The translations under genes and the position numbers were made by a program. The notes beneath the pieces are model-generated. The model was not told where the DNA came from and did no database searches. It saw only the letters and a program-made list of their open reading frames with translations. Positions 10,786-46,106 of a DNA stretch of 46,160 bases are shown here, one piece after another. Numbering within the stretch: the first letter of the stretch is position 1; each line of letters begins with the position of its first letter. Origin of the DNA: an uncultured Pirellulaceae bacterium (GTDB taxonomy: Bacteria > Planctomycetota > Planctomycetia > Pirellulales > Pirellulaceae); NCBI GenBank assembly GCA_938091115.1, contig CALKNI010000037.1, positions 1 to 46,160 on the forward strand, read 5' to 3'.

Positions 10786-13482
10786 TTAGTTTTTCGCCTG
10801 TCGAACCGATTCAGCGGGCAAGTCAATCGCTCGCACGGTAACCTCATCCAGCATGGCGGTTCCCGTACCAGTCAGACCAAAGGTCACTTGAACACGGCTA
10901 TCCTCCGCCGCCGCTCGGTATAAAGTGAACTCCTGCCAACCGGCGGTAATCGGAATCCGCTCCATCATTTCCGCACCTCCCAGAGAATCGGTAATGGTCA
11001 ATCCGTCATGCGTCCCACGAATGACCTTGGGAATATTGACCCACCCGTGAATTCGTACCAGTTGCCCCGCCTTAACCAAAGTTTCCGGGGAAGTAATCCA
11101 CAGCGGGGTGGATTCAATCACACCTTGATTGGGCTGTTTCTCAGTTACTGACATCTTCAATCCATAACGGCCATCGACCGCCGCGCTCGCCGCTAATTCA
11201 ACCCGAGTACTGACCAGTTCACTCTCTTTCCGATCGTTTTTCCAACCGTTGGCGAGCATATGCTTTAAATCTTCAAAATCACCACCTGCCAGTCCGTTAG
11301 GCTGCCAATTTCCCTGACTCAATCGCTCGGTGAGTTCCCAGTGTAGAGGGATTAAACTCGAATGGACAGTAAAGGGAGTTGAAGTTTTCGATTGAAACTT
11401 CCCCAATGGCTCAATGATCATGTCGCGACGCACAAAGGCAAGCCGTTCATCTGCTCGATCAAGATAAGGAACTGCCATCAGAGCATTATTGCTCGCAATA
11501 AACCGTGAAGCATTCTGAAACGAATTCACAGCATCATTAAGCGCGGTGCTGCCGGCAGACGAACTGCGCCCCATTCGTCCCATTTGTTTATCAATCAATT
11601 GCATGATCGCCAGCCACTGGCGGGTCAATTCGAGATGCATTTGAAGGATCGATTGCTTTCCAACTCGCTCGTAACTGCTATTTAACTTTTTTATCACTAA
11701 AGGATCTTGTGTCAAAACGATTGCCATCATCGAAGGGCAGTTATTAATCCGGATAACAGCGCCCGAGATATCCCGTGTTTTGGACAACGGCTGCAGCCCA
11801 GTATCGCCAATCAAATACGCCAATTCAGTTGCATTGGCAGTCGGGTCTTTAATCGCCATCGGCTGCACAAGCAAATCACCAGCTAAATATTGCTCGTGGT
11901 GAGTCGGACGCTCAACCAACAACAAACGGGAACGATTTGTTTTAATGACGGCAATTTCAAGCTCGTCATTTGCGTTGGCCAACGAACCCATCAGAGCTCC
12001 TCCGACCGCCCATGGTTCAATTTGATCAACATGAGCTAACGCCCACTGAATGGTCTGAGATCGCAATCGAGTCTCTGGGCTCGGATCGTCCAGACGCGAA
12101 CGCGAACCGAATCTCAGGCCGCGGGCACCCGCTGAAATAGCTTCATAAACTAAAAACTTCACCTGCTGTGGCTCGATCGGTAACGGAGGAGTTTTTCTGG
12201 CCAGTGTTGCTATTTGGGCAAGCAACGATTCAGGAAACTCAGTTTGAATGTTCGCCCAAACCGGCTTGGTTTCGCCAACTAATAGCCGGCGCGCGGCAAT
12301 CCAATCCCGATACTGACTCGCAATGAAACTGGTGCCGATGGGACTCAGCCCCATTGAAACCACATCTACAGCTTGCGACAAACGGGTCCAATTTGAGCTG
12401 ATCTCTGCCAAAATCAGCCGACCGTCTCGACGGTCGGACGCGCGAATTTCGCGAACTTTTCGGTTGAGACTCGAAAGATCAGCGGCAGTTAAATTCTCAC
12501 CCACCTGCCAAACCAGAACACGGTCAAATTTAAGACTGATCGGCTGTAAACCTACTGTGGAAGGGGGAGGGCAGATCAACCACATATCGAGGGACTGAGC
12601 AAGTTGAAGCTGAGCTTCAGTTGCGGTCGACTTTAACTCGATCGTATTAAATCCAAGTGCTTTTAAAAATTCAAACGACTCCCCGTTATGTTGAATAATC
12701 TTAGGAAAGAAGGGCTTCTTTTTAACTAGTAGAACAGATCCCTCTCGCGTCACGAGCGATTTGTGTTTTTCGTCCGATGCCTCAAAACTTGCCGGCTGTA
12801 ACCTAGCGTCCTGAATCACCACCGAATCATTCGCAGCAACTCCCGCTGCAATTGCGTCTGCTGCCACAATTCCATTAAGCTTGAGGTCGTCAATCTGAAC
12901 TGCTGTTTTACCTGGCCCCGAATACAGGTTAACCACCAATTTATCAACATAAGCGTCCCGCTGATCCACACTCGGTCCGTACTTGCGCCGCAGTAGCCAA
13001 ACCCGCTCAGTTAATTGACGATGCAAATCAAAAGATTTCTTTTCAAACGAAAGGGTTTCCCAACGCCCTCTACCTTCATACCTTGGCCCCACCAACATGG
13101 TCGTCAACGGTCCGTCACCCGACGGAGAAGGGGAGTGGGGAAGGACGATTCGCGCCATTAATTGAACTCCAGGCCGCGTCGCCTTAATTCGCACCGATGG
13201 ATTGAGTTCGGAGATCACAAATGCAGGAGAGACCTTATGGGACAAATAGACCTTGGTTCCCGGGCCGCTAGTAAAATGCACACTCTCGCAACCATTATTG
13301 TCATCAGGATCACGAAACCGTCTTTGAACCCAACTTGCTTGAGTAATCGAGCAATCTGTCTCGTGTCGCTGCCACGACGTCTGCCCCGATTCAAATTCCT
13401 CATGGAACTGCCCTCGGACTGCGTCTGTAGGAACCAAGGCCACAAGAGTAAATACAATCAAGTTGGTAAGTCGAGATTTCAT
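10786..13482 (-). CDS. Large secreted protein with beta-rich ends and a TIM-barrel-like core, function unknown
   Basis: An 898-residue exported protein. Residues 1-24 form a signal peptide (basic start, LIVFTLVALVP core, cleavage near VRG-QF). Residues of about 25-205 are beta-rich and resemble a carbohydrate-binding jelly roll (FESGQTSWQRHETDC to the QIDDLKLNG strand). About 240-480 alternate helix and strand in a way suggestive of a glycosidase-like barrel (FEFLKALGFNTIELKST, DMWLICPPPS, WANIQTEFPESLL, EAISAGARGLRFGSRS). Residues of about 740-898 look like a second beta-sandwich ending in MLDEVTVRAIDLP. No catalytic residues could be assigned. It is a single gene, convergent with the isomerase-like gene. 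The role may be polysaccharide binding or breakdown at the cell surface, but this is inference. Confidence 0.85.
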   Translation of the reverse strand: MKSRLTNLIVFTLVALVPTDAVRGQFHEEFESGQTSWQRHETDCSITQASWVQRRFRDPDDNNGCESVHFTSGPGTKVYLSHKVSPAFVISELNPSVRIKATRPGVQLMARIVLPHSPSPSGDGPLTTMLVGPRYEGRGRWETLSFEKKSFDLHRQLTERVWLLRRKYGPSVDQRDAYVDKLVVNLYSGPGKTAVQIDDLKLNGIVAADAIAAGVAANDSVVIQDARLQPASFEASDEKHKSLVTREGSVLLVKKKPFFPKIIQHNGESFEFLKALGFNTIELKSTATEAQLQLAQSLDMWLICPPPSTVGLQPISLKFDRVLVWQVGENLTAADLSSLNRKVREIRASDRRDGRLILAEISSNWTRLSQAVDVVSMGLSPIGTSFIASQYRDWIAARRLLVGETKPVWANIQTEFPESLLAQIATLARKTPPLPIEPQQVKFLVYEAISAGARGLRFGSRSRLDDPSPETRLRSQTIQWALAHVDQIEPWAVGGALMGSLANANDELEIAVIKTNRSRLLLVERPTHHEQYLAGDLLVQPMAIKDPTANATELAYLIGDTGLQPLSKTRDISGAVIRINNCPSMMAIVLTQDPLVIKKLNSSYERVGKQSILQMHLELTRQWLAIMQLIDKQMGRMGRSSSAGSTALNDAVNSFQNASRFIASNNALMAVPYLDRADERLAFVRRDMIIEPLGKFQSKTSTPFTVHSSLIPLHWELTERLSQGNWQPNGLAGGDFEDLKHMLANGWKNDRKESELVSTRVELAASAAVDGRYGLKMSVTEKQPNQGVIESTPLWITSPETLVKAGQLVRIHGWVNIPKVIRGTHDGLTITDSLGGAEMMERIPITAGWQEFTLYRAAAEDSRVQVTFGLTGTGTAMLDEVTVRAIDLPAESVRQAKN

Positions 13483-13723
13483 GCTTAGTGTCGCAAAAAA
13501 ACAACATACTCGGATTGGCGATTCACAAAGCCAACGATCAGGAGAATCGCCTGCGGTGAGGTTTCAACGTTGGTGTTTTGTTGTAAATCGCGAGATTTTT
13601 AGACTTTTAGCAAGATTTTGGTCCAATCGCTACGGCAAAGATGTTGCATTTACACCTCACCAACCTCGATACAATCGAGGCAATTTTTTTTCTTAGAATC
13701 GCTAGCACGGGTTTTTTCAGGGT

Positions 13724-21302: not shown

Positions 21303-21861
21303 TCGAGTTCCACTAAACGTCGAAAGTTCAACGCTAAGAATCATTCATTAAGCGGCACTGCTAAGATGAAGCTCTGCACAGTCTGAATCGCTCAATATCG
21401 AATCGGCTGTTTTTAACTCTTCAACATCTGCATTGATCACCACGAGTTATCGCCCAGCCTTAAGATGATCTTCATATTTAAGGATGTGCTTTTTCTCAAC
21501 TCCCAAGGCACTCAATCATTCGCTTAACACCCGCATCGAAAGGCTTTCCCGCGGTAGAACTCAAACTCAAAACAAAAGGCGTGCAACCAAAAACTTTGTG
21601 CAGCGTCCAAGCAACTCCCCTGAAAGGGGGTGGATCGAACCAGCGTTGCAACCTAAAAACCGCCAGCACAATCGCCCGCAGATGACCATTTGCTTCCTTT
21701 TAACGCGAAATAACTAGGGAAACCTGAAATTACGCTACGACTGCCGTCTTTACCGCCGAAAAGTGAATCTAAGCAGTTTTAGTTCGATTTTTGTTGTTTT
21801 AAAGGCGATGTTTCTTTAGCATAAACGAAGATTTCCGGAAGCTTTCTTGGGAGACAGTTGG
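21303..21861. other. Intergenic stretch with no convincing gene
   Basis: About 560 bases. A 77-codon frame at 21484-21717 starts at an ATG, but its only AAGG is directly adjacent, and the Arg/Asn/Gln-rich product looks like an out-of-frame reading. A short GC hairpin (CCCCTGAAAGGGG, about 21616-21628) has no T tract after it. GGGAG at 21849-21853 belongs to the next gene. Confidence 0.4.
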
Positions 21862-22542
21862 ATGCTCTACAATTCGAAAGTGTTTTTATTCTGTTACTTG
21901 GCCGCTTCGCTTGCTTGCAGCCATTGTCTTGCAGACGTGGAAGTCAGTAAAACCGATTCCAAAACATCGGTCGCGGTTCCCAAAGCAGAAAACGTGCCTC
22001 GTCAGCAAACAAGTAATCTGACGGCTCCCGATATCGGGTTGGTCGTTACACAACCAAGGCAATTTTCGACACCAACCACGCTGTCAACGCCTCGCCTTAA
22101 TTCTTCCAACCTTCAGGCCTCGGTGGGAATCAATTCGTCTTCACCTCTTTTTGAGGATACAAAGCAACAACAAAGATATGAGTCCGTACTAAATGGAATT
22201 CGTAAACTTAAGCTGAACGATGGAAACGAAGGTACGAGCAGTGATTGGTTCGTCGTTGGCGGGATCGTTGGAAATCAAGCAAACTTTGAAGCCTTTCAAG
22301 GCGAAGAAGATGTCGCCCGGCGAGTGGTTGAATTTCTTGACCAAACCGACAATCGCTGTCAATGGAAGATCTTTTCTCGCGAAACTGATGCTTATACCGC
22401 ACAAGAGAATGTTTCCAAGGTGAAATCTGAATATCAACAGTGGCGGCAGGCGCAGATCAGTCGCCAAAATGCCATCTGGCGGTCACAACAGCAAGCTGCC
22501 GCCAATGCCTATCGCAGACGCTGCTCTTCGGGAAGCGGCTGA
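21862..22542 (+). CDS. Secreted protein of unknown function
   Basis: A 226-residue protein. ATG 21862 is chosen because GGGAG (21849-21853) sits eight bases upstream. Residues 1-25 form a signal peptide (YNSKVFLFCYLAASLACS, cleavage near CLA-DV). A long Ser/Thr/Pro-rich linker follows to about residue 95, then a compact domain with YESVLNGIRKLKLNDG, DWFVVGGIVGNQANFEAF and DVARRVVEFLDQ, and a Gln/Arg/Ala-rich basic helix at the end (YQQWRQAQISRQNAIW). Two cysteines at the end of the signal region and one near the C-terminus show no pattern. I do not recognise a family. Confidence 0.75.
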   Translation: MLYNSKVFLFCYLAASLACSHCLADVEVSKTDSKTSVAVPKAENVPRQQTSNLTAPDIGLVVTQPRQFSTPTTLSTPRLNSSNLQASVGINSSSPLFEDTKQQQRYESVLNGIRKLKLNDGNEGTSSDWFVVGGIVGNQANFEAFQGEEDVARRVVEFLDQTDNRCQWKIFSRETDAYTAQENVSKVKSEYQQWRQAQISRQNAIWRSQQQAAANAYRRRCSSGSG

Positions 22543-22685
22543 CGCTAAACCTATCCTCTGCCGTCGGCAGATCTCTCAAAAGAATCTACAGCCTCATATC
22601 GAATTGAACAAATCAAATCGATTGCTTGCGGACTGCGGACCGTTACTGACGCTGACGATAAAGGAGCCCGCTTCGGGTTAAAGAA

Positions 22686-24296
22686 ATGAAATCACTTGGA
22701 CTTCCTATCCAACGAATCTTGTTCATGTTGAGTCAGCTTTTCAGAACGACACGTGAGCATTCTCGAGCAGTAGCTCGAATTGGTCCGAGGCCCTGCCTCG
22801 TTAGATACCTGTTCATCGCGATTCTATGCGGACTGCCTGCGGAGAACGTGTTGTCAGAAGAAAAACCTAACATCATCTTTATCCTCGCCGATGATATGGG
22901 CTACGGGGATTGTTCATGCAATAACCCTGAGTCAAAAATCCGTACCCCAAATATTGACCAACTGGCAAAGGGTGGTGTCCGTTTCACCGATGCGCATTCT
23001 GCGGCAGCAGTGTGCACGCCTTCGCGCTATGGCTTACTCACCGGCACCTGCCCGGCACGGACGGATATCAACAATTTCACCGCCGGCAGAGGGCCTGTCA
23101 TCGCCTCTGACGAAGTGACCATAGCTGATCTGCTTAAGGAGCAAGGTTATACGACTCACATGATCGGTAAATGGCATCTCGGCTTTGAAGGGGGGACGCG
23201 CAAAATCGTCTTCTCGAAGCCTCTGGCCGGCGGCCCACTCGACTGCGGTTTTGATTCTTACTTTGGCGTCAACAAAGCACCAAGCAGCCCTCCTTATTTC
23301 TACATCATGGGGCGCGAGCCCGTCGCAAAGCCGGATGGATCTATCGAGGGTAATGATGAGAAAGGCAAAGACAGGCGGGAAGTATACCGCGCAGGCGAAG
23401 CCGCACCGGGATTCAGACCCGAAGACGTAACCGAAACGCTCTGCAACGAAGCGGTCCGGATTATCCGCGACTATGGGGCGTCGGATAAGAAACAGCCGTT
23501 CTTCCTTTACTATGCCCTGACGTCACCGCATTCACCCTGGTTGCCACCCGAAAAATTTAAAGGCAGGAGTGAGGCGGGAACGTACGGCGATTTTAATGTG
23601 CAACTCGACGATGAAGTGGGCAGAGTGGTAAGAGCTTTGGAGGAAACCGGACTGGCAAAGGATACGCTGATTATCTTCACCAGTGATAACGGCCCCATGT
23701 GGATGAACGGGGACAAGGAGAAATTCGATCACCACGCTTGTGGTGTTTTGAAAGGACACAAGGCCTCGCCGAACGAAGGCGGTCACCGCGTTCCATTCAT
23801 CGCCACATGGCCGGGCAAAATTGCGTCGGGGACGGTATCCGAATCAACCATCAACTTCACCGACTTTTTTGCCACACTGGCGGAGATGTTTGATGTGAAA
23901 TTCCAAAAAGTGTACCCGGGCATGGCCAGGGACAGTCTCAGCTTTTACCCCGCGCTGTTTGAACCGGAGAAGAGAATTCCGCGGCCGGCGATGATCGTTG
24001 GCAACTACAGTTTGAGGATGGACGACTGGAAACTGGTTGCGCGCAAGGTGGGAAAGAAAGCGAAAACTCCTGCAATCACGGACATCAAAATCTACAACCT
24101 CGCAGAAGACCTTTCCGAACAGAATGATCTCGCACAATCCAAGCCGGAACGCCTGCAGGCGATGTACGAACACTATAGAAACTTTATGGAAAGCCGGGAG
24201 TTAAGACCGGAGCGGGCAGCGAAGACCGCAGGAAAACAGAGAAAGCCAAAACCACAACGCAAATCTACAAAGCCGGGCAAAGGCCATAGAAAATGA
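22686..24296 (+). CDS. Sulfatase (formylglycine-dependent, S1 type)
   Basis: A 536-residue exported sulfatase. The N-terminus is long and basic before the hydrophobic segment (LVRYLFIAILCGLPAENVLS, about residues 38-57), so a later start such as Met14 is possible. The metal-binding start PNIIFILADDMGYGD (Asp69, Asp70) and the modification site C110-TPSR, where the cysteine becomes formylglycine, are intact, as are GKWHLG, LTSPHSPW and IFTSDNGP. It hydrolyses sulfate esters, probably of sulfated polysaccharides; the substrate cannot be read from the sequence. The C-terminal 25 residues are an unusual Lys/Arg/Pro-rich tail. It is followed after 15 bases by a second sulfatase gene. An anaerobic maturase or FGE must act from elsewhere. 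Confidence 0.94.
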   Translation: MKSLGLPIQRILFMLSQLFRTTREHSRAVARIGPRPCLVRYLFIAILCGLPAENVLSEEKPNIIFILADDMGYGDCSCNNPESKIRTPNIDQLAKGGVRFTDAHSAAAVCTPSRYGLLTGTCPARTDINNFTAGRGPVIASDEVTIADLLKEQGYTTHMIGKWHLGFEGGTRKIVFSKPLAGGPLDCGFDSYFGVNKAPSSPPYFYIMGREPVAKPDGSIEGNDEKGKDRREVYRAGEAAPGFRPEDVTETLCNEAVRIIRDYGASDKKQPFFLYYALTSPHSPWLPPEKFKGRSEAGTYGDFNVQLDDEVGRVVRALEETGLAKDTLIIFTSDNGPMWMNGDKEKFDHHACGVLKGHKASPNEGGHRVPFIATWPGKIASGTVSESTINFTDFFATLAEMFDVKFQKVYPGMARDSLSFYPALFEPEKRIPRPAMIVGNYSLRMDDWKLVARKVGKKAKTPAITDIKIYNLAEDLSEQNDLAQSKPERLQAMYEHYRNFMESRELRPERAAKTAGKQRKPKPQRKSTKPGKGHRK

Positions 24297-24311
24297 AGGA
24301 TCACAATTGAG

Positions 24312-26918
24312 ATGAAGTTTTACATTCCCTTTCTATTCATTGCCGTATCTAGCGTTGTGCCACCCATCGGCGCTGCTGAACTTCCAAACATCGTTCTCAT
24401 AATGTCCGATGATCAGGGCTGGGGCGAGACGAGCTACAACGGTCATCCGCAATTGAAGACACCCGTCCTCGACAAGATGGCGGCCACGGGCTTGCGGCTG
24501 GATCGCTTCTACGCCGCCTCGCCGGTGTGCTCCCCAACCCGGGCCAGTGTGTTGACCGGGCGTCACGCCAACCGAATGGGCGCCTTCGGAGCGAACTGGT
24601 CGATTCGCCCGGAGGAAATCACCTTGGCGCCACTGCTGAAGGCCGCTGGCTACCGGACGGCTCACTACGGCAAGTGGCACATCGGTGCGGTGAAGAAAGA
24701 CTCGCCGCTCTCGCCAAAAGCGTTGGGCTTCGACGAATCACTTTCACACGACAACTTTTTCGAGATGAACCCGACGCTGAGTCGAAATGGAAATCCGCCC
24801 GAGCAAGTCAACGGAGAGGGTTCCGAAATCCTGGTGAAAGAAGCTCTGGACTTCGCGCGTCGATCAGCGAGTGAAGATGCACCGTTCTTCTTGGTGATTT
24901 GGTTTGGCTCACCCCATTCTCCCTACGAATGCGCCGAGAAAGACAGCGCACCCTACCGCGAGCTGGGTGAAGATCTGAGCTGGCGCTTCGGAGAGATCGC
25001 CGCGATGGACCGCGCAATCGGGCAGTTTCGCGACGGGCTCGATCGAATCGGTGAACGTTCCAACACGCTGATCTGGTTCAATTCCGACAACGGGATGACC
25101 ACCGAGATGATTCCCAAGGAGCAGCAGGCGAACATGTTCAACGGCGGCCTCCGCGGCACCAAGTCACACATGACCGAGGGCGGCCTGCGCGTTCCGGCCA
25201 TAATCGAGTGGCCCGCTGTAATCACCAAAGCGAGGAGCAGTTCCGTCCCTGGTGTCACCTCCGATATTTTGCCAACCCTGCTGGACATCGTGCAAATCGC
25301 CCACCCAAAGCCGGAGCGGCCGCTCGACGGAATCAGCCTGAAAACCTTGATTGTGTATGGCAGAATGAAACAGCGCCCGAAGCCGATCGGATTCTCCGGA
25401 TACAACTGGAAAGACGAGCAGCAAAACGCACCGTGGTTGGCAGATCAACGCCTCAACGAATTCATCACCGAGATTGCGAAGAAGAAAGAGACGGACAGAA
25501 AACGCAAGACCTACTTCAAGAATCACCGGCATCCAGTGGCGGGAACCGAGTTTGAAAAAACTAGGGCGTGGATCGACAACCGATACAAGTTGTTGTTTCC
25601 GAAGAGCAAAAACGCCAGTTACGAACTCTACGACATCGTCGCGGACAAGGAGGAGAGCCACGACATCGCCTTGGAGCATCCCGAAATCGTCGAGCGAATG
25701 GCGGCGGAACTGAAGGCTTGGCAACTGTCGGTCGAGCGCAGTCTCACCGGCGCCGACTATGGGAGTCGTACCGGCGCGACTGGGCAAAAGGCGGCTCCAG
25801 CGGCACGCAGGAACCAATCGAAAATGCGCGAGAAGGCTGTGACTCGGGGCGACCTGCTTGAAGCTGTACGCGAAGCCAGCCCTGATACAATCGCTGACAC
25901 GTCCGCTACGGACGCAATGCAATTCAAGCGTCTCTGCCACATGCGCGTCGCATATCACAAACGTTACGCTGCAATCGTGCAAACGATCCATGATGAGTCG
26001 ACGGCGATTGCTGCAGCGAAGTCATTCGCAGACTTGCTTCCGCTGAAGTGCGAAACGAATCACTTGGGACGGATGCTCCGCCGGTACAAAATGAAACCCG
26101 AACAGACTGTCCTGCTTGAGGAAACGCAGCAGAAAATCGATTCCATCAATCAAGACATCATCAGTGCCACTCTCAAAGTTCGTGACGAGCCGTTCTTCAA
26201 GATCTTTGGAAGGGCGTTTCAGGATCTGAACACGTTATCACGCGCACTGAAGCCTGTTCCAGTACCTGAGGGGCATGCTCAACGCGGGGATGGGCCGCAA
26301 ATCGTGGTTTGGCTGCCACCAAGCGGGAAAGGAGAAATCGACCTAAGCGATGAAAAAGGTATGCTTGAGGTCGTCGTCGTAAACGAACTGACAGGAGAAC
26401 TCAAGAGGCAGCGAGAGCACATCTCGTGTGGGGGAAAGGCGATGCTCCCCACGACTGGCTCGAAATACGGCACTCTCCTTTGGCTTCGACCGCTTGCTGA
26501 ATCGGTTGCTGCAGAACTTGAACCGGTTGAGGAAAGCATCAATATTCACATGGCGTTGCTTTTTAAGCCCTCGTACATACGGTTGAAGACGCTAATGCGT
26601 GAAAGCCCCAAAGAGGCAGTAGGTTGGAAAGCAATACAGGCTGAGGCACTGCTGTTGGCAGAAAGCGGGAGCAATTTAAAGGATCGTCGCCCATCCGAAG
26701 TGAGTGTCCGCGATGGAAAGGAGTATTGGGCAAAAAACAGTAGTGAAGTGCAGACGTTCGGCGCAGAACTGTATCACGCTGCAAAGGAGAAAGATTTCGC
26801 GGCGGCGACTCGTAGTTACAAATCAATGACCAAGAGCTGCAATGCTTGTCATCAGGCGAACGTTTTCCTGGGAGGCCCTCCAGTACTGAATCCCTTTGGA
26901 AAGGGAGTCACCGATTAG
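24312..26918 (+). CDS. Sulfatase fused to a C-terminal haem-binding cytochrome c-prime-like region
   Basis: An 868-residue exported protein, much longer than usual sulfatases (about 450-550). Residues 1-22 are a signal peptide. Residues of about 24-485 are a complete sulfatase: PNIVLIMSDDQGWGE, the formylglycine site C73-SPTR, GKWHIG, FGSPHSPY, WFNSDNG and the closing YELYDIVADKEESHDIA. After an Ala/Arg/Gln-rich linker (about 486-505), some 360 more residues follow in frame with no family I can name, ending in a helical segment with C843-NACH-847 (CXXCH) 21 residues from the end, the arrangement of class II cytochromes c. Covalent haem attachment would need export, which the signal peptide provides. 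It follows the first sulfatase by 15 bases, probably in one operon. Confidence 0.9.
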   Translation: MKFYIPFLFIAVSSVVPPIGAAELPNIVLIMSDDQGWGETSYNGHPQLKTPVLDKMAATGLRLDRFYAASPVCSPTRASVLTGRHANRMGAFGANWSIRPEEITLAPLLKAAGYRTAHYGKWHIGAVKKDSPLSPKALGFDESLSHDNFFEMNPTLSRNGNPPEQVNGEGSEILVKEALDFARRSASEDAPFFLVIWFGSPHSPYECAEKDSAPYRELGEDLSWRFGEIAAMDRAIGQFRDGLDRIGERSNTLIWFNSDNGMTTEMIPKEQQANMFNGGLRGTKSHMTEGGLRVPAIIEWPAVITKARSSSVPGVTSDILPTLLDIVQIAHPKPERPLDGISLKTLIVYGRMKQRPKPIGFSGYNWKDEQQNAPWLADQRLNEFITEIAKKKETDRKRKTYFKNHRHPVAGTEFEKTRAWIDNRYKLLFPKSKNASYELYDIVADKEESHDIALEHPEIVERMAAELKAWQLSVERSLTGADYGSRTGATGQKAAPAARRNQSKMREKAVTRGDLLEAVREASPDTIADTSATDAMQFKRLCHMRVAYHKRYAAIVQTIHDESTAIAAAKSFADLLPLKCETNHLGRMLRRYKMKPEQTVLLEETQQKIDSINQDIISATLKVRDEPFFKIFGRAFQDLNTLSRALKPVPVPEGHAQRGDGPQIVVWLPPSGKGEIDLSDEKGMLEVVVVNELTGELKRQREHISCGGKAMLPTTGSKYGTLLWLRPLAESVAAELEPVEESINIHMALLFKPSYIRLKTLMRESPKEAVGWKAIQAEALLLAESGSNLKDRRPSEVSVRDGKEYWAKNSSEVQTFGAELYHAAKEKDFAAATRSYKSMTKSCNACHQANVFLGGPPVLNPFGKGVTD

Positions 26919-27207
26919 CCGGGAGCTCTCATGATAACCCGCGTTGACAACAATTCGGACGCAGACGAAGCAATTTCTTAGCTCCGAAGCCCGTGATTCT
27001 TGCAATGGAGCAGGAAAACACACGATTCCTGGCAAACTCACCACAATTGAACGTTGCCGAGCCTCACCTTTCGCGGTTAAATCAACGCATCGGCGACGAA
27101 GATTCGCTTTTTTGAACCACATGTTTTCCAAAAGTGGAAACTATGGCTCAGCAACCGAGTTATAGCATTCAGTGTGGCTGCAACCAATTCAATTCACTCA
27201 ACATTTG

Positions 27208-27813
27208 ATGGGCAGCATGTCTGGAACCAAAATGACCTTCTGGATAACAACTTTCGCAATCACGGCATTTCTGTTTATCGGGTGGAAATTGACGGCAAGA
27301 GGAAACTATGAGACAGCAGCCTACGAATTAATCAAATCTGACGGCCCCTTCGAGCTACGAGATTACCCTGACATCATGCTCGTCACGACTGATATGGCGA
27401 CGAACTCTAATGGCAACGACGGCAGTTTTGGTCGGCTTTTTCAATATATCAGCGGCAACAACGAAGCTGGCCAAAAAGTCAAAATGACAACCCCGGTCTT
27501 TATGGAGTCCAACTCCACGGGAGCGAATGGCACGATGGGCTTTGTTATTCCTCAAAAGGTCGCCGAATCATCCATCCCACAACCGACGGGCGCCCGAGTA
27601 GAAATCGAAAAGAGGACGGCTGGCAAGTACGCTGTAATGCGTTTTGACGGGTGGTTAAACGAGCGCACTCAGTCGGATAGCGAGGCAAAACTTATCGATT
27701 GGATCGAAAAGCAAGGCTGGGAACGAGAAGACCAAACGGAATTTGCCGGATACGATCCGCCGTGGACCCCGAAGATTTTACGAAGAAATGAGACATTGAT
27801 CCGCCTTAGGTAA
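27208..27813 (+). CDS. SOUL-family haem-binding protein
   Basis: A 201-residue protein with one N-terminal membrane segment (FWITTFAITAFLFIGWKL), then a SOUL/p22HBP domain: YETAAYELIKSDGPFELRDY, SFGRLFQYISGNN, VKMTTPVFME and RFDGWLNERT are typical of the family, which binds haem or related tetrapyrroles. ATG 27208 is used; ATG 27217 and 27232 also precede the hydrophobic segment, and no clear ribosome binding site decides between them. The protein is probably anchored with its domain in the periplasm. It lies at the start of a region that also holds TspO and CtaA, two other proteins of haem or porphyrin handling. Confidence 0.9.
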   Translation: MGSMSGTKMTFWITTFAITAFLFIGWKLTARGNYETAAYELIKSDGPFELRDYPDIMLVTTDMATNSNGNDGSFGRLFQYISGNNEAGQKVKMTTPVFMESNSTGANGTMGFVIPQKVAESSIPQPTGARVEIEKRTAGKYAVMRFDGWLNERTQSDSEAKLIDWIEKQGWEREDQTEFAGYDPPWTPKILRRNETLIRLR

Positions 27814-35292: not shown

Positions 35293-35331
35293 GAACAACT
35301 TCTAGCAATTCATAACTACTTCTGATCCATT

Positions 35332-37800
35332 ATGCTTCCTCTTCCAACCCATCTATCCGAGCGCTGCCGTTGGGTCGATTCCGCAATCGATTTCAACACT
35401 CTGAAAACAGGTGGGTTCATTCTGTACTGGATGCGTTATGCACTTCGCACTGAAGAAAACCCTGCGCTCGACGTCGCGATCAACCTTGCAATCCTTCACG
35501 ATTGCCAGTTACTGATTTATCAGGAATTAAACTGCCGAGATGAGTATTCCTCTGACCGCCATTACGCGTTTGCCTTAGAAGGAGCCGCCGACGTCCAAGA
35601 ACAACTGACGAAAAAAGGAATTAGTTATGCTTTTCATCTGACTCCTAAAAAAGACGAAACTTCTCCACTTATGTCGCTCGTTTGCGACGCTGAAATCGTA
35701 GTTACCGAAGAGATGCCGACGACCTTCGCCCGAAAAGAGTTGGATTTAATCAACGCATCAGTTGAGACCTCATTTCTGTCTGTTGACGCCTCCTGTGTTC
35801 TCCCCATGCGACTTTCGAAAGGCTCATTCACCCGTGCTTTCGAGTATCGAAACGCAACCAAAGACAGCTACAGCAATCGGGTTTTGCTGCCGTGGCCAAC
35901 AACACCATCATTACCTCGCTCATTCCCAATTGATGCGTTACCGTTCCAACCAATTGATTTCAAATCAACCAAAATTTCGGATCTCATCGCAGTTTGCGAA
36001 ATTGACCACTCCGTTTCGCCCGTCGCCGATACCTTAGGAGGTACAACCGCAGGCTATCAACGCTGGGAGTCTTTTAAATCAAAACAACTCAGTCAGTATG
36101 CGCACCGTCGGAACGACCCTCTCCTTAAAGGGGCCAGCCGAATGTCAGCTTACATTCATTACGGCATGGTGTCGCCATTGCGTTTGGCAAGGGAAGCCGC
36201 AGAACTTGGAAACACAGGGGCTGAAAAATATTTAGATGAACTGTTGTTTTGGCGAGAACTCGCTTTTGTTTTTTGCTTCCATGAAAAACAGCATGACTGC
36301 TGGGCAGCCATTCCGAGTTGGGCAAAAAAAACTCTTGAAGCCCACGGAGAGGATATTCGACCGGTCATTTACTCTTGGGAAACTCTTGCAAGAGCGCAAA
36401 CTAATGATGAATTCTGGAACGCCGCGCAGCTAACGCTCTTACGACATGGTGAACTCCATAACAACCTCCGGATGACGTGGGGGAAGGCGATCATTAACTG
36501 GACTAAAAATCCTCAAGATGCATTGGATTTAGTTTTTGATTTGAATCATCGATATGCTCTCGACGGTCGTGATCCTTCGTCCGTTGGTGGCATCCTTTGG
36601 TGTTTTGGTCAATTTGACCGCCCGTTCAAACCGGCTCGTCCAATTCTGGGAACTGTCAGAGAGCGATGCACGGATACACACGCGGACCGCCTCCCAGTTT
36701 TAGATTATCGCGAACAATTCGTCCGCCCAAGAATAAAACACCGGCCACGGATCGCCATCATTGGCGCTGGAATCTCTGGTCTCTTCGCTGCAAGAACGAT
36801 CGCCGACTACGGGCTGGACGTTGTTGTTTTTGAGAAAAGTCGAGGTGTTGGCGGTCGAATGGCCACTCGCCGCACGCCGTCTCAGCAAAAGTTCGACCAC
36901 GGTGCACAGTATTTTACGGCAAGGGACGATCGCTTTCTCAGGTATGTTCGCTCTTGGCAAGCACAAGGAGTGGTGGCGAATTGGCCTGACCCTGACCAAG
37001 GCACCAGCGAGCAAATTGCGGTAATTAAGAACGGGAAAATTGAGTCCTATTCAGTCTCCGAGCAAAGGTTTGTCGGCACTCCCGGAATGAACGCAGTCGG
37101 CAAACATCTTGCTGATGGACTCAATGTCCAACTCAAAACAGAAGTTGATTCTATTACGCCAACGCACAACCAGTTGGCCCTAAAAGATTCCTCGAAAAAT
37201 CTGATTGGAAATTTCGACCGCCTGATTGTTTCTGCCCCAGCCGCTCAAACAGCAGAATTGCTTTCTGAGTTCCCGACCATCGCAAGACCGATTTCAGAGA
37301 TCATAATGAACCCGTGCTGGGCCGTGATGGCTGAGCTTCCCAAACCGCTAGACACAGCTTGGGTAGCAGCGTTCGTTCACGACTCACCAATTTCATGGGT
37401 TGCACGCAACCATACCAAACCCGGTCGGCAATCAGCTCATGAGCAATTGGTCCTTCACGCCAACCCTCGATGGAGCACCGACCATTGGAACGAGGACCCT
37501 GAAAAGATATCGGCGATGCTACTCGATGAGCTTTGGCAAGCAACTTCGGTTACCCCGCAAAGCCCTACGAATTCAATCGCTCACAGATGGAAGTACGCTA
37601 TCCCGGTAAACTCAACTAAAATTGAAAGCTACTTTGACGCCGAGGTTGGCATCGCCGCTTGCGGTGATTGGGCAAATGGCTCACGAGTCGAAGGAGCGTT
37701 TCTAAGTGGAATGTCTGCAACGGGTAGAATTTTAGGGTCAATAACTTTGATGACACGCAATGAACTGGCAAAGAGCGGGGGACTCTCGCCAACCTGCTAA
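35332..37800 (+). CDS. Class II photolyase fused to a renalase-like FAD oxidoreductase
   Basis: An 822-residue two-enzyme fusion. Residues 1 to about 465 are a class II CPD photolyase: the antenna part (FILYWMRYALRTEENPALD onwards) and the FAD helical part with LLFWRELAFVF, HNNLRMTWGKAIINW and DLNHRYALDGRDPSSVGGI. From about 472 a second flavoprotein follows in frame: RIAIIGAGISGLFAARTIA (473-491), the GVGGRMATRR signature, FDHGAQYFTARDDRFL, and a closing GIAACGDWANGSRVEGAFLSG, as in renalase/NAD-FAD amine-oxidase-like proteins. Photolyase splits UV-made cyclobutane dimers using blue light; the second domain's substrate is unknown. Two FAD sites in one chain may exchange electrons, but that is inference. 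It is followed 90 bases later by an Nei-type glycosylase gene. Confidence 0.93.
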   Translation: MLPLPTHLSERCRWVDSAIDFNTLKTGGFILYWMRYALRTEENPALDVAINLAILHDCQLLIYQELNCRDEYSSDRHYAFALEGAADVQEQLTKKGISYAFHLTPKKDETSPLMSLVCDAEIVVTEEMPTTFARKELDLINASVETSFLSVDASCVLPMRLSKGSFTRAFEYRNATKDSYSNRVLLPWPTTPSLPRSFPIDALPFQPIDFKSTKISDLIAVCEIDHSVSPVADTLGGTTAGYQRWESFKSKQLSQYAHRRNDPLLKGASRMSAYIHYGMVSPLRLAREAAELGNTGAEKYLDELLFWRELAFVFCFHEKQHDCWAAIPSWAKKTLEAHGEDIRPVIYSWETLARAQTNDEFWNAAQLTLLRHGELHNNLRMTWGKAIINWTKNPQDALDLVFDLNHRYALDGRDPSSVGGILWCFGQFDRPFKPARPILGTVRERCTDTHADRLPVLDYREQFVRPRIKHRPRIAIIGAGISGLFAARTIADYGLDVVVFEKSRGVGGRMATRRTPSQQKFDHGAQYFTARDDRFLRYVRSWQAQGVVANWPDPDQGTSEQIAVIKNGKIESYSVSEQRFVGTPGMNAVGKHLADGLNVQLKTEVDSITPTHNQLALKDSSKNLIGNFDRLIVSAPAAQTAELLSEFPTIARPISEIIMNPCWAVMAELPKPLDTAWVAAFVHDSPISWVARNHTKPGRQSAHEQLVLHANPRWSTDHWNEDPEKISAMLLDELWQATSVTPQSPTNSIAHRWKYAIPVNSTKIESYFDAEVGIAACGDWANGSRVEGAFLSGMSATGRILGSITLMTRNELAKSGGLSPTC

Positions 37801-44354: not shown

Positions 44355-44552
44355 TAATTACACACATTTTTTGGTATCAGATTCGTTTGGATGTCGACCA
44401 TCGTAGCAATCGAAAGGCAGATTGCCATCAATACCAAAGTATTATTTCGAGTGTTTGTAGCTACCCGTTAAATTTATTTGTTTCTGGAATGGAAACTGGT
44501 AAGCTGCACCGGCTTTTAAATAACTGAATATTGAATTACCAAGCACATAAAA

Positions 44553-46106
44553 ATGAGAAAAAACAACTCCAAAATTTCAATGGCCTCTTGGGGCGTTTGC
44601 TGCCTCATCGTTCTGAGCTTTAAAACCGCATGTGCTGAGGTCAATGACCACGCTCAATTTAGACCAGCTCTTCCCAACGTCATTGTCGTGATGGCAGACG
44701 ACCTTGGACTGGGAGATGTCTCTCCGACCAACGCAGAATGCAAAATCAAAACTCCTAACTTGCAAGCGATGGCAGATGCGGGGCTTACGTTTCTAGACGC
44801 ACATACCCCCAGTTCTGTCTGCACTCCAACTCGCTATGGCCTGTTAACGGGGCGTTACAACTGGCGCTCTCGACTAGCCAAGGGAGTGCTCAGCGGTCGC
44901 AGCGAGCACTTAATTCCTGCCCAGCGGAAAACTCTCGGGCATCTCATGAAATCGGCTGGATATCACACGGGCATGATTGGCAAATGGCACCTTGGCTGGG
45001 ATTGGCACAAGGTCAATGGAAAAATAGATTTCACGCAGCCTGTCAAAAACGGGCCCGACATTAATGGCTTCGACCAATACTACGCGCATTGTGGTTCGCT
45101 GGACATGCCGCCCTATGTTTGGGTGGACACTGGTAAAGTCACCGCCGTTCCCGATCGCGAGGAGGGGGTAACTTCGGCACAAGATCCCTACGGTTGGTAC
45201 CGCAAAGGGCCCATCGGATCCGATTTTCATATTGATCAGGTTTTGCCTCATTTGTTTGAAAAATCAATGAAATTTATCAAAGAACAATCCAATGCCAAAA
45301 ACTCAGGAAGTCCGTTCTTTCTTTATCTGGCACTTCCCGCACCGCATACACCCATCGTTCCCGTGCCGCCCTTCAAGGACGCCAGTGGAATTAACCCTTA
45401 CGCAGATTTTGTCATGCAAGTCGATTTTCACATGGGTGAACTCATGGAAACGCTGAAACAGTGCGGAGTCGCAAATAAAACACTCTTGATCTTCACCAGT
45501 GACAACGGTTGCTCGCCACAGGGAAACTTTAAAGTACTTAAAGATCACGGACACGATCCCAGTGCAGGATTCCGCGGCCATAAGGCTGACATCTACGAAG
45601 GCGGGCACCGCGTGCCACTCATCGTTCGCTGGCCAGGCCACCTGACAGAAGGCACAACTTCCCAAGCGATGGCTTGCCTAACCGACATTTACCCAACCCT
45701 TGAATCAATCACTGGTCAGACCAAAGCTGACACTGGAGGCGAAGATGGATTTGATTTAAGCCCAGTCTTTCAAGGGGAAAAATCATCCGATCGTGAGACG
45801 CTAATCAGCCACTCGATCGGCGGCTCATTCGCGATTCGCAAGGGCCCTTGGAAACTCTGTATCTCGAGAGGGAGTGGCGGTTGGAGTGCCCCGCGTGAAC
45901 CCGATGCTCGCAAGCAGGGACTCCCGACCATGCAGTTATTTAACCTAAAGCAAGATCGGGCGGAAACAAAAAACCTCATCGAAAAGAACCCTACCAAAGC
46001 CCAGGAACTATTGAAAATTCTTGAGGAGGAAATTGCCGCGGGGAGATGCTCACCCGGAAAACCGGTCCCCAATGACCGCAAAGTCGTCTTCATGCCGAAA
46101 GGCTAA
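44553..46106 (+). CDS. Sulfatase (formylglycine-dependent)
   Basis: A 517-residue exported sulfatase. The signal peptide is short (MASWGVCCLIVLSFKTACA within residues 10-28), the metal start is PNVIVVMADDLGLGD (Asp49, Asp50), and the modification site is C90-TPTR. GKWHLGWD, LALPAPHTP and IFTSDNGCSP are intact. It is most like the sulfatase at 22686, with which it shares the CTP(S/T)RYGLLTG block, and the two are probably paralogues. Substrate unknown, presumably a sulfated polysaccharide. It stands alone after a 198-base upstream region. Confidence 0.94.
   Translation: MRKNNSKISMASWGVCCLIVLSFKTACAEVNDHAQFRPALPNVIVVMADDLGLGDVSPTNAECKIKTPNLQAMADAGLTFLDAHTPSSVCTPTRYGLLTGRYNWRSRLAKGVLSGRSEHLIPAQRKTLGHLMKSAGYHTGMIGKWHLGWDWHKVNGKIDFTQPVKNGPDINGFDQYYAHCGSLDMPPYVWVDTGKVTAVPDREEGVTSAQDPYGWYRKGPIGSDFHIDQVLPHLFEKSMKFIKEQSNAKNSGSPFFLYLALPAPHTPIVPVPPFKDASGINPYADFVMQVDFHMGELMETLKQCGVANKTLLIFTSDNGCSPQGNFKVLKDHGHDPSAGFRGHKADIYEGGHRVPLIVRWPGHLTEGTTSQAMACLTDIYPTLESITGQTKADTGGEDGFDLSPVFQGEKSSDRETLISHSIGGSFAIRKGPWKLCISRGSGGWSAPREPDARKQGLPTMQLFNLKQDRAETKNLIEKNPTKAQELLKILEEEIAAGRCSPGKPVPNDRKVVFMPKG

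Follow-up and report, generated by a model that had tools for sequence, protein, structure and literature searches.

The window analysed here, the whole stretch of 46,160 nucleotides from an uncultured Pirellulaceae bacterium, carries a forward-strand gene at 24312..26918 that joins a sulfatase to a haem domain. The gene is a single frame of 868 codons with an ATG start and zero internal stops, and its product of 868 amino acids is composed of a sulfatase, a helical stretch, a beta stretch and a class II cytochrome c domain, in this order. The original prediction, made from the letters of the sequence, had claimed such an in-frame join, and this was borne out, as one open frame leads from a PF00884 front to a PF01322-like tail. 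The signal peptide that had also been proposed is likely by hydropathy reading at residues 1–22 (24312..24377, + strand), the top 12 of its 19-residue hydropathy windows all starting at residues 1–14. A basic linker, delimited by eye, follows the sulfatase at residues 485–519 (25764..25868, + strand). The 242 codons of the middle part (residues 485–726) were stop-free in the frame of the fusion and contained 4 to 10 stops in each of the other five frames, and only 1 of 20,000 shuffles of this part remained open.

The drop in base composition that had been noticed within the gene was confirmed by its GC3, which fell from 0.72 (residues 1–484) to 0.59 (485–726) and 0.50 (727–868), a composition of two sources. 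Of the 18 frames in the window with 300 codons or more, the fusion gene showed the largest internal difference (0.16), followed by differences of 0.11 in size, and the outlier was the sulfatase part, the other 17 long frames ranging from 0.43 to 0.58. Elsewhere in the window, an 824-codon ORF at 35326–37797 matched a DNA photolyase (PF00875, residues 33–161) and then an FAD amine-oxidase-type domain (PF01593, from residue 483), and is apparently another fusion; a third sulfatase gene was observed at 44535–46103 (PF00884, E 4.6e-46), and a 925-codon frame on the reverse strand at 10789–13563 had no Pfam match at E 0.001.

Domains of the fusion protein

The S1 sulfatase domain spans residues 25–484 (24384..25763, + strand). 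PF00884 matched residues 25–328 (E 2e-51, 175.6 bits against a cut-off of 25), and the solved carrageenan sulfatase 6prm (chain A) aligned with residues 21–359 and 416–476 at E 6.3e-49. The motif CSPTR at residues 73–77 (24528..24542, + strand), which agrees with the C/S-x-P-x-R pattern, was aligned with CGPSR of 6prm and is presumably the formylglycine-precursor motif, with C73 as the putative precursor, and we take the DDQG, GKWH and DNG motifs to be those of the sulfatase catalytic domain. The expectation of a complete sulfatase up to about residue 485 held, the matches of relatives ending near residue 483 of the fusion. By sequence, the fusion carries a complete S1 formylglycine-type sulfatase, whose activity is predicted.

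The sulfatase frame stopped within 43 residues of the match end in 28 of 29 loci from relatives. The exception was L046 (1384–4200, in genome G021 of the same genus), the closest relative found for the sulfatase domain of the fusion, with 50% identity; it is likewise a sulfatase with a C-terminal extension, which is, unlike that of the fusion, a PhoD-like phosphatase. Neither a CXXCH in the sulfatase frame nor a match to the cytochrome profile was found in 18 further long-frame sulfatase loci, these and the 29 being a subset of the sulfatase places found by genome searches that scored the best candidates per genome. Long sulfatase extensions are therefore not rare, and a cytochrome extension was seen in the fusion alone. 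Among the long frames, one of 952 codons in genome G027 (L203) holds two sulfatase domains in tandem.

The class II cytochrome c domain covers approximately residues 731–868 (26502..26915, + strand). The sole CXXCH of the protein is the predicted haem-attachment site CNACH at residues 843–847 (26838..26852, + strand), 21 residues before the C-terminus, which is the class II position that had been claimed for it; both cysteines and the histidine were conserved in 60 of 61 aligned sequences, with one gap. When residues 727–868 were compared alone, PF01322 (Cytochrom_C_2) matched with E 3.9e-5 and 25.0 bits, below its cut-off of 26.5 bits, which was also missed by two stand-alone cytochrome relatives (23.3 and 25.9 bits); the tail is therefore called class II-like by homology and motif, and not a Pfam member. 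The tail (residues ~727–868) shared 55% identity with a stand-alone protein that this genome also encodes (C60), a second one (C24) showed 34% identity to part of it, and a stand-alone copy in an Opitutia MAG reached 62–63% identity to the cytochrome domain. Moreover, a family profile whose first row was the domain of the fusion (A1) matched the structure 6r6m at E 2.9e-4. The original prediction had described the tail as cytochrome c-prime-like, of which the class II assignment stood, the subtype probably being another one. Met747 (26550..26552, + strand), present in 61 of 61 aligned sequences, lies in the first helix and is presumably the sixth haem ligand, giving the His/Met ligation of the c-556 type. 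Its invariance points to a His/Met-ligated, c-556-like electron carrier and not to a five-coordinate cytochrome c-prime. The Trp and Glu columns of the cytochrome family were also kept in the haem domain of the fusion in the alignment of 61.

The homology with the stand-alone cytochromes began just past their apparent signal peptides, as judged by eye, and all 19-residue hydropathy windows between residues 484 and 740 had means of at most 0.68, against 1.78 at the N-terminus. The haem domain thus lacks a signal-like stretch and would depend on its fusion to the sulfatase for passage to the periplasm. The predicted structure of the tail consisted of helices, with block pLDDT of 77–89 for the greater part of the final two, lower values ahead of them and a model mean of 53. 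No Foldseek match was obtained with this model at E <0.001; PsbQ of photosystem II came first (E 0.072), cytochromes c-prime appeared from E 0.13 and the two-chain Kusta0087/Kusta0088 complex at E 0.18, the matched part of the model being unstated for all of these entries.

The part between both domains had been described as belonging to no nameable family, which remained valid for one of its two stretches. The helical stretch (residues 520–643; 25869..26240, + strand), with predicted helices of block pLDDT 53–72 from about residue 534, had no family match and is still an orphan, whereas the beta stretch (residues 656–727; 26277..26492, + strand) was weakly similar to Collagen_bind_2 (PF12904). 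A custom profile of 27 PF12904 domains matched the beta stretch at E 0.034 for a set of 5000 (12.6 bits), one of 4999 shuffles coming close with 11.2 bits, and the Pfam model of PF12904 gave no match on it. The beta stretch was not filed as a PF12904 member because the match was weak and came from our own profile, with none from Pfam; its resemblance to Collagen_bind_2 is likely but unproven. The ORFs with weak matches to this stretch included L034/L081, L043/L079 and L044, which carry PF12904 above its cut-off, and L037, which scored 20.3 bits against the cut-off of 22; these loci had been chosen by similarity, so that the presence of PF12904 among them is no independent test. For the middle as a whole, no meaningful match was found in Pfam and NCBIfam (up to E 1) or by sequence in the PDB (up to E 10), a 5_nucleotid match at E 0.046 being taken as chance, and the comparison with 147 relatives and 392 sampled genomes of the phylum returned weak matches only. 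Those of the helical stretch that were read, in ORFs of L109 (coiled-coil ATPase-like) and L039 (sensor-kinase-like), named by eye, and in others, look unrelated. The structure model of the middle alone had a mean pLDDT of 45.

A probably inserted cassette and the search for other fusions

The fusion gene is preceded, 15 bases upstream, by a second sulfatase gene (sulfA; 22686..24296, + strand; PF00884 E 5.4e-57), and both form a probably inserted cassette of about 4.3 kb (22632..26911, + strand) whose borders were placed within about 20 bases by the empty syntenic site of genome G022 (L131). The cassette was missing from the syntenic site in six close relatives, in which its flanks, a hypothetical gene (21847–22542) and a gene for a SOUL haem-binding protein (27172–27813), adjoin each other. 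In G022, the alignments of 22501–22631 and 26912–27300 meet with a 10-base overlap; the borders were less sharp in the other five relatives, whose aligned parts were separated by –13 to 314 bases. The simpler reading is that the cassette was gained here rather than lost in six relatives. The SOUL gene (PF04832, E 5.4e-41), on the same strand downstream of the fusion, is a syntenic host gene and probably lies beside the haem fusion by chance. At 21518–21556, between a FabA-like gene and the hypothetical gene, the relatives carry extra DNA that this genome is without; in G022 it amounts to about 4.8 kb and includes two ORFs of phospholipase-D-type appearance, as judged by eye, and the other five show similar distances at that site.

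The fusion gene is a singleton within one draft genome of 232 contigs, and no second fusion was found among the best candidates per genome of 396 sampled genomes of the order (up to 10 candidates scored), 241 of the family (up to 17) and 315 sampled genomes of the class of the Opitutia (about 6). The profile search of the order yielded 80 places in 73 of the 396 genomes, the frame of the fusion being the only one longer than 476 codons. Similarly, 56 places were obtained in 54 of the 241 family genomes, in which the frame of the fusion had 873 codons and the next 288, and 3 of the 315 Opitutia-class genomes matched, with frames of 170 to 197. When the tail was used as a query of 382 residues, 40 of 147 genomes matched, its own included, and all matches outside its own gene started at query residue 233 or later, in or just before the cytochrome. 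Scans of genome contigs, which reach close relatives only, gave no match with the tail and three stand-alone cytochromes with a second profile (A2), and no fusion was found in the viral contigs searched. The possibility that other planctomycetes share the fusion was not confirmed, the homologues being seen only as separate genes. The original prediction had named this finding, coupled with an assembly error at the join, as what would speak against it; of such an error there was no sign, the host flanks being in conserved order. In the phylogenetic tree, the cytochrome of the fusion grouped, with full support, with the Opitutia copy, C60 of its own genome and copies from genomes G1189 and G063; its position inside this group was weakly supported.

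Cytochrome and sulfatase genes as neighbours

Around 31 stand-alone cytochromes, 10 of the 71 flanking ORFs considered (71 of 77 listed) were sulfatases, each of them on the same strand and directly downstream. An earlier, smaller count at a threshold of 1e-12 gave a sulfatase at position +1 in 12 of 51 loci, against 4 of 551 slots elsewhere. When it was extended, with a threshold of 1e-10 for our own sulfatase profile and crudely called ORFs, a same-strand sulfatase occupied the +1 position of a stand-alone cytochrome in 13 of 59 loci and the other slots from –8 to +8 in 5 of 632 cases; no same-strand sulfatase was at +1 in 46 of the 59. The 61 loci taken were 55 of the 56 family places (all but the fusion), five order places outside the family (E 1e-33 or better, 47 weaker ones with E above 1e-21 standing outside the count) and the Opitutia locus L106. 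The cytochrome ORF was present in 60 of them, L200 being dropped because it was not found there, and 59 of the 60 had a +1 gene; L107 was left out as it lies on the same contig as L193.

The 13 downstream sulfatases comprised ten in the genus of the fusion (66–98% identical), two in genus g49 (71–76%) and one in g45, and these three groups showed 25–32% identity to each other and to the sulfatase of the fusion. Three unrelated sulfatase groups and the fusion therefore represent four separate pairings. The sulfA product was 39–41% identical to the sulfatases found downstream of cytochrome genes in its own genus. A tree of 60 cytochrome rows required 4 changes of the label of being sulfatase-linked, and the well-supported branches alone forced 4, the bootstrap of this tree not having settled. 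When collapsed to genera, the pair occurred in 3 of 32, with p of 0.010 or 0.025 depending on how the background was counted, in a test devised after the pattern had been seen and with approximate background cells. The genus-level backing for the neighbour link is accordingly modest.

One row of genes in genome G002 (L102, 5230–12605) contains on one strand, in this order, a PSCyt/PSD gene, a DUF1552 gene, a stand-alone class II cytochrome and a DUF5060-Collagen_bind_2 protein. In Verrucomicrobia, one study reports that sulfatases are often near PSCyt genes (PMC5615132). As far as described there, that system shares with the present one the presence of cytochrome genes near sulfatases, some with carbohydrate-binding modules, and differs in that its cytochromes are of other families and are neighbours of the sulfatases. 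The G002 row and this precedent fit a sugar-oxidising setting, with no reaction implied.

Possible role and comparison with known systems

Planctomycetes carry very many sulfatases and, to our knowledge, the steps that follow desulfation in these bacteria are poorly known. The hydrolysis of sulfate esters requires no electrons, so that the haem domain would most likely act after it, when the sugar or alcohol set free is oxidised. We propose that the fusion protein is exported to the periplasm, where haem would be attached, and that its sulfatase part would remove sulfate from an algal galactan-type sugar, the nearest solved relative being a kappa-carrageenan sulfatase. The tethered c-556 domain might then take electrons from a periplasmic oxidase or dehydrogenase acting on the freed sugar and hand them to the respiratory chain. 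The two stretches in between would serve as a spacer and perhaps as a sugar-binding module. No electron donor or acceptor was identified within the cassette. We assign a probability of about 40% to the reading that the fusion is a genuine, acquired and exported two-function protein, with the haem domain acting as redox partner in the handling of desulfated sugars.

A real and recent join in which the cytochrome has no relevance for the sulfatase, and which is bound to be undone by loss or separation, is a doubtful reading that deserves attention: the fusion occurs in one genome with no second joined form in the genomes searched, its helical middle has no relatives found, and other sulfatases bear long extra stretches without a cytochrome. 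The haem domain has, however, retained Met747, the Trp and Glu columns and CNACH, and cytochrome and sulfatase genes adjoin in three other lineages. Class II cytochromes pair via their helices, and a domain that dimerises the sulfatase or holds it in a complex, with a structural haem, would agree with the predicted helices of the tail and with the cytochrome c-prime and Kusta0087/Kusta0088 entries returned by Foldseek, although PsbQ ranked above them; such a role is improbable, the invariant Met747 and CNACH suggesting a working haem. Cytochromes c-prime bind NO and CO, and such complexes were among the Foldseek entries, which would suit a haem domain that detects NO, CO or the redox state and tunes the sulfatase, but a methionine in 61 of 61 sequences suggests that the sixth site is filled, and we consider a sensor very improbable.

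A contig assembled from the DNA of two organisms, with the junction inside the fusion gene, could be argued from the fragmentation of the draft genome into 232 contigs, from the fall of GC3 inside the gene and from its single occurrence. Against such a chimera, the middle is open in the frame of the fusion only, and host genes stand in conserved order on both sides, so that it would require two joins, including an in-frame one; we regard this origin as quite improbable.

Returning to the proposed redox partnership, the fusion shows that the two parts meet, and the neighbour pattern, with its modest statistics, lifts it above a mere oddity. In a wider form, this proposal would make class II cytochromes the dedicated redox partners of planctomycete sulfatases in this group, with at least four recruitments (three pairs resembling operons and one fusion), and the desulfation of algal polysaccharides would be coupled in place to an oxidation that feeds respiration; we put it forward as a rather unlikely generalization. 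If the neighbour pattern holds, a small haem protein would be a partner of sulfatases and would offer a direct way to search for a missing oxidation step. The fusion of this marine bacterium hints that the desulfation of seaweed-type sugars may be tied to an undescribed electron transfer, and no description of an oxidative route for sulfated sugars through such coupling was found in the literature.

Both kinds of domain are known, and their combination in one protein is new within the scope of the searches; no report of a sulfatase joined to a cytochrome was found in a literature search that mostly covered journals outside subscription. In PVC bacteria, fusions of sulfatase genes with glycoside hydrolases have been described, the partners named there being GH10, GH32 and GH29 and one annotated amylopullulanase (PMC6388578). 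These fusions share with the present one a sulfatase and a second domain in sulfatase-rich PVC bacteria, and differ in that the partners given there are hydrolases and the one found here is a redox protein. Hence, as far as these published cases go, sulfatase fusions join hydrolases, and a haem domain is a different kind of partner. The nearest solved sulfatases, 6prm (exo-4S-kappa-carrageenan sulfatase) and 9fo1 (kappa-carrageenan sulfatase S1_16), share the full catalytic domain with the fusion, which has 384 residues beyond it. Likewise, 6r6m, the small cytochrome of the Kuenenia pair Kusta0087/Kusta0088, shares the helical domain, predicted here, and the CXXCH near the C-terminus, and the class II relatives found are single-domain proteins, whereas the cytochrome of the fusion is the C-terminal domain of an enzyme.
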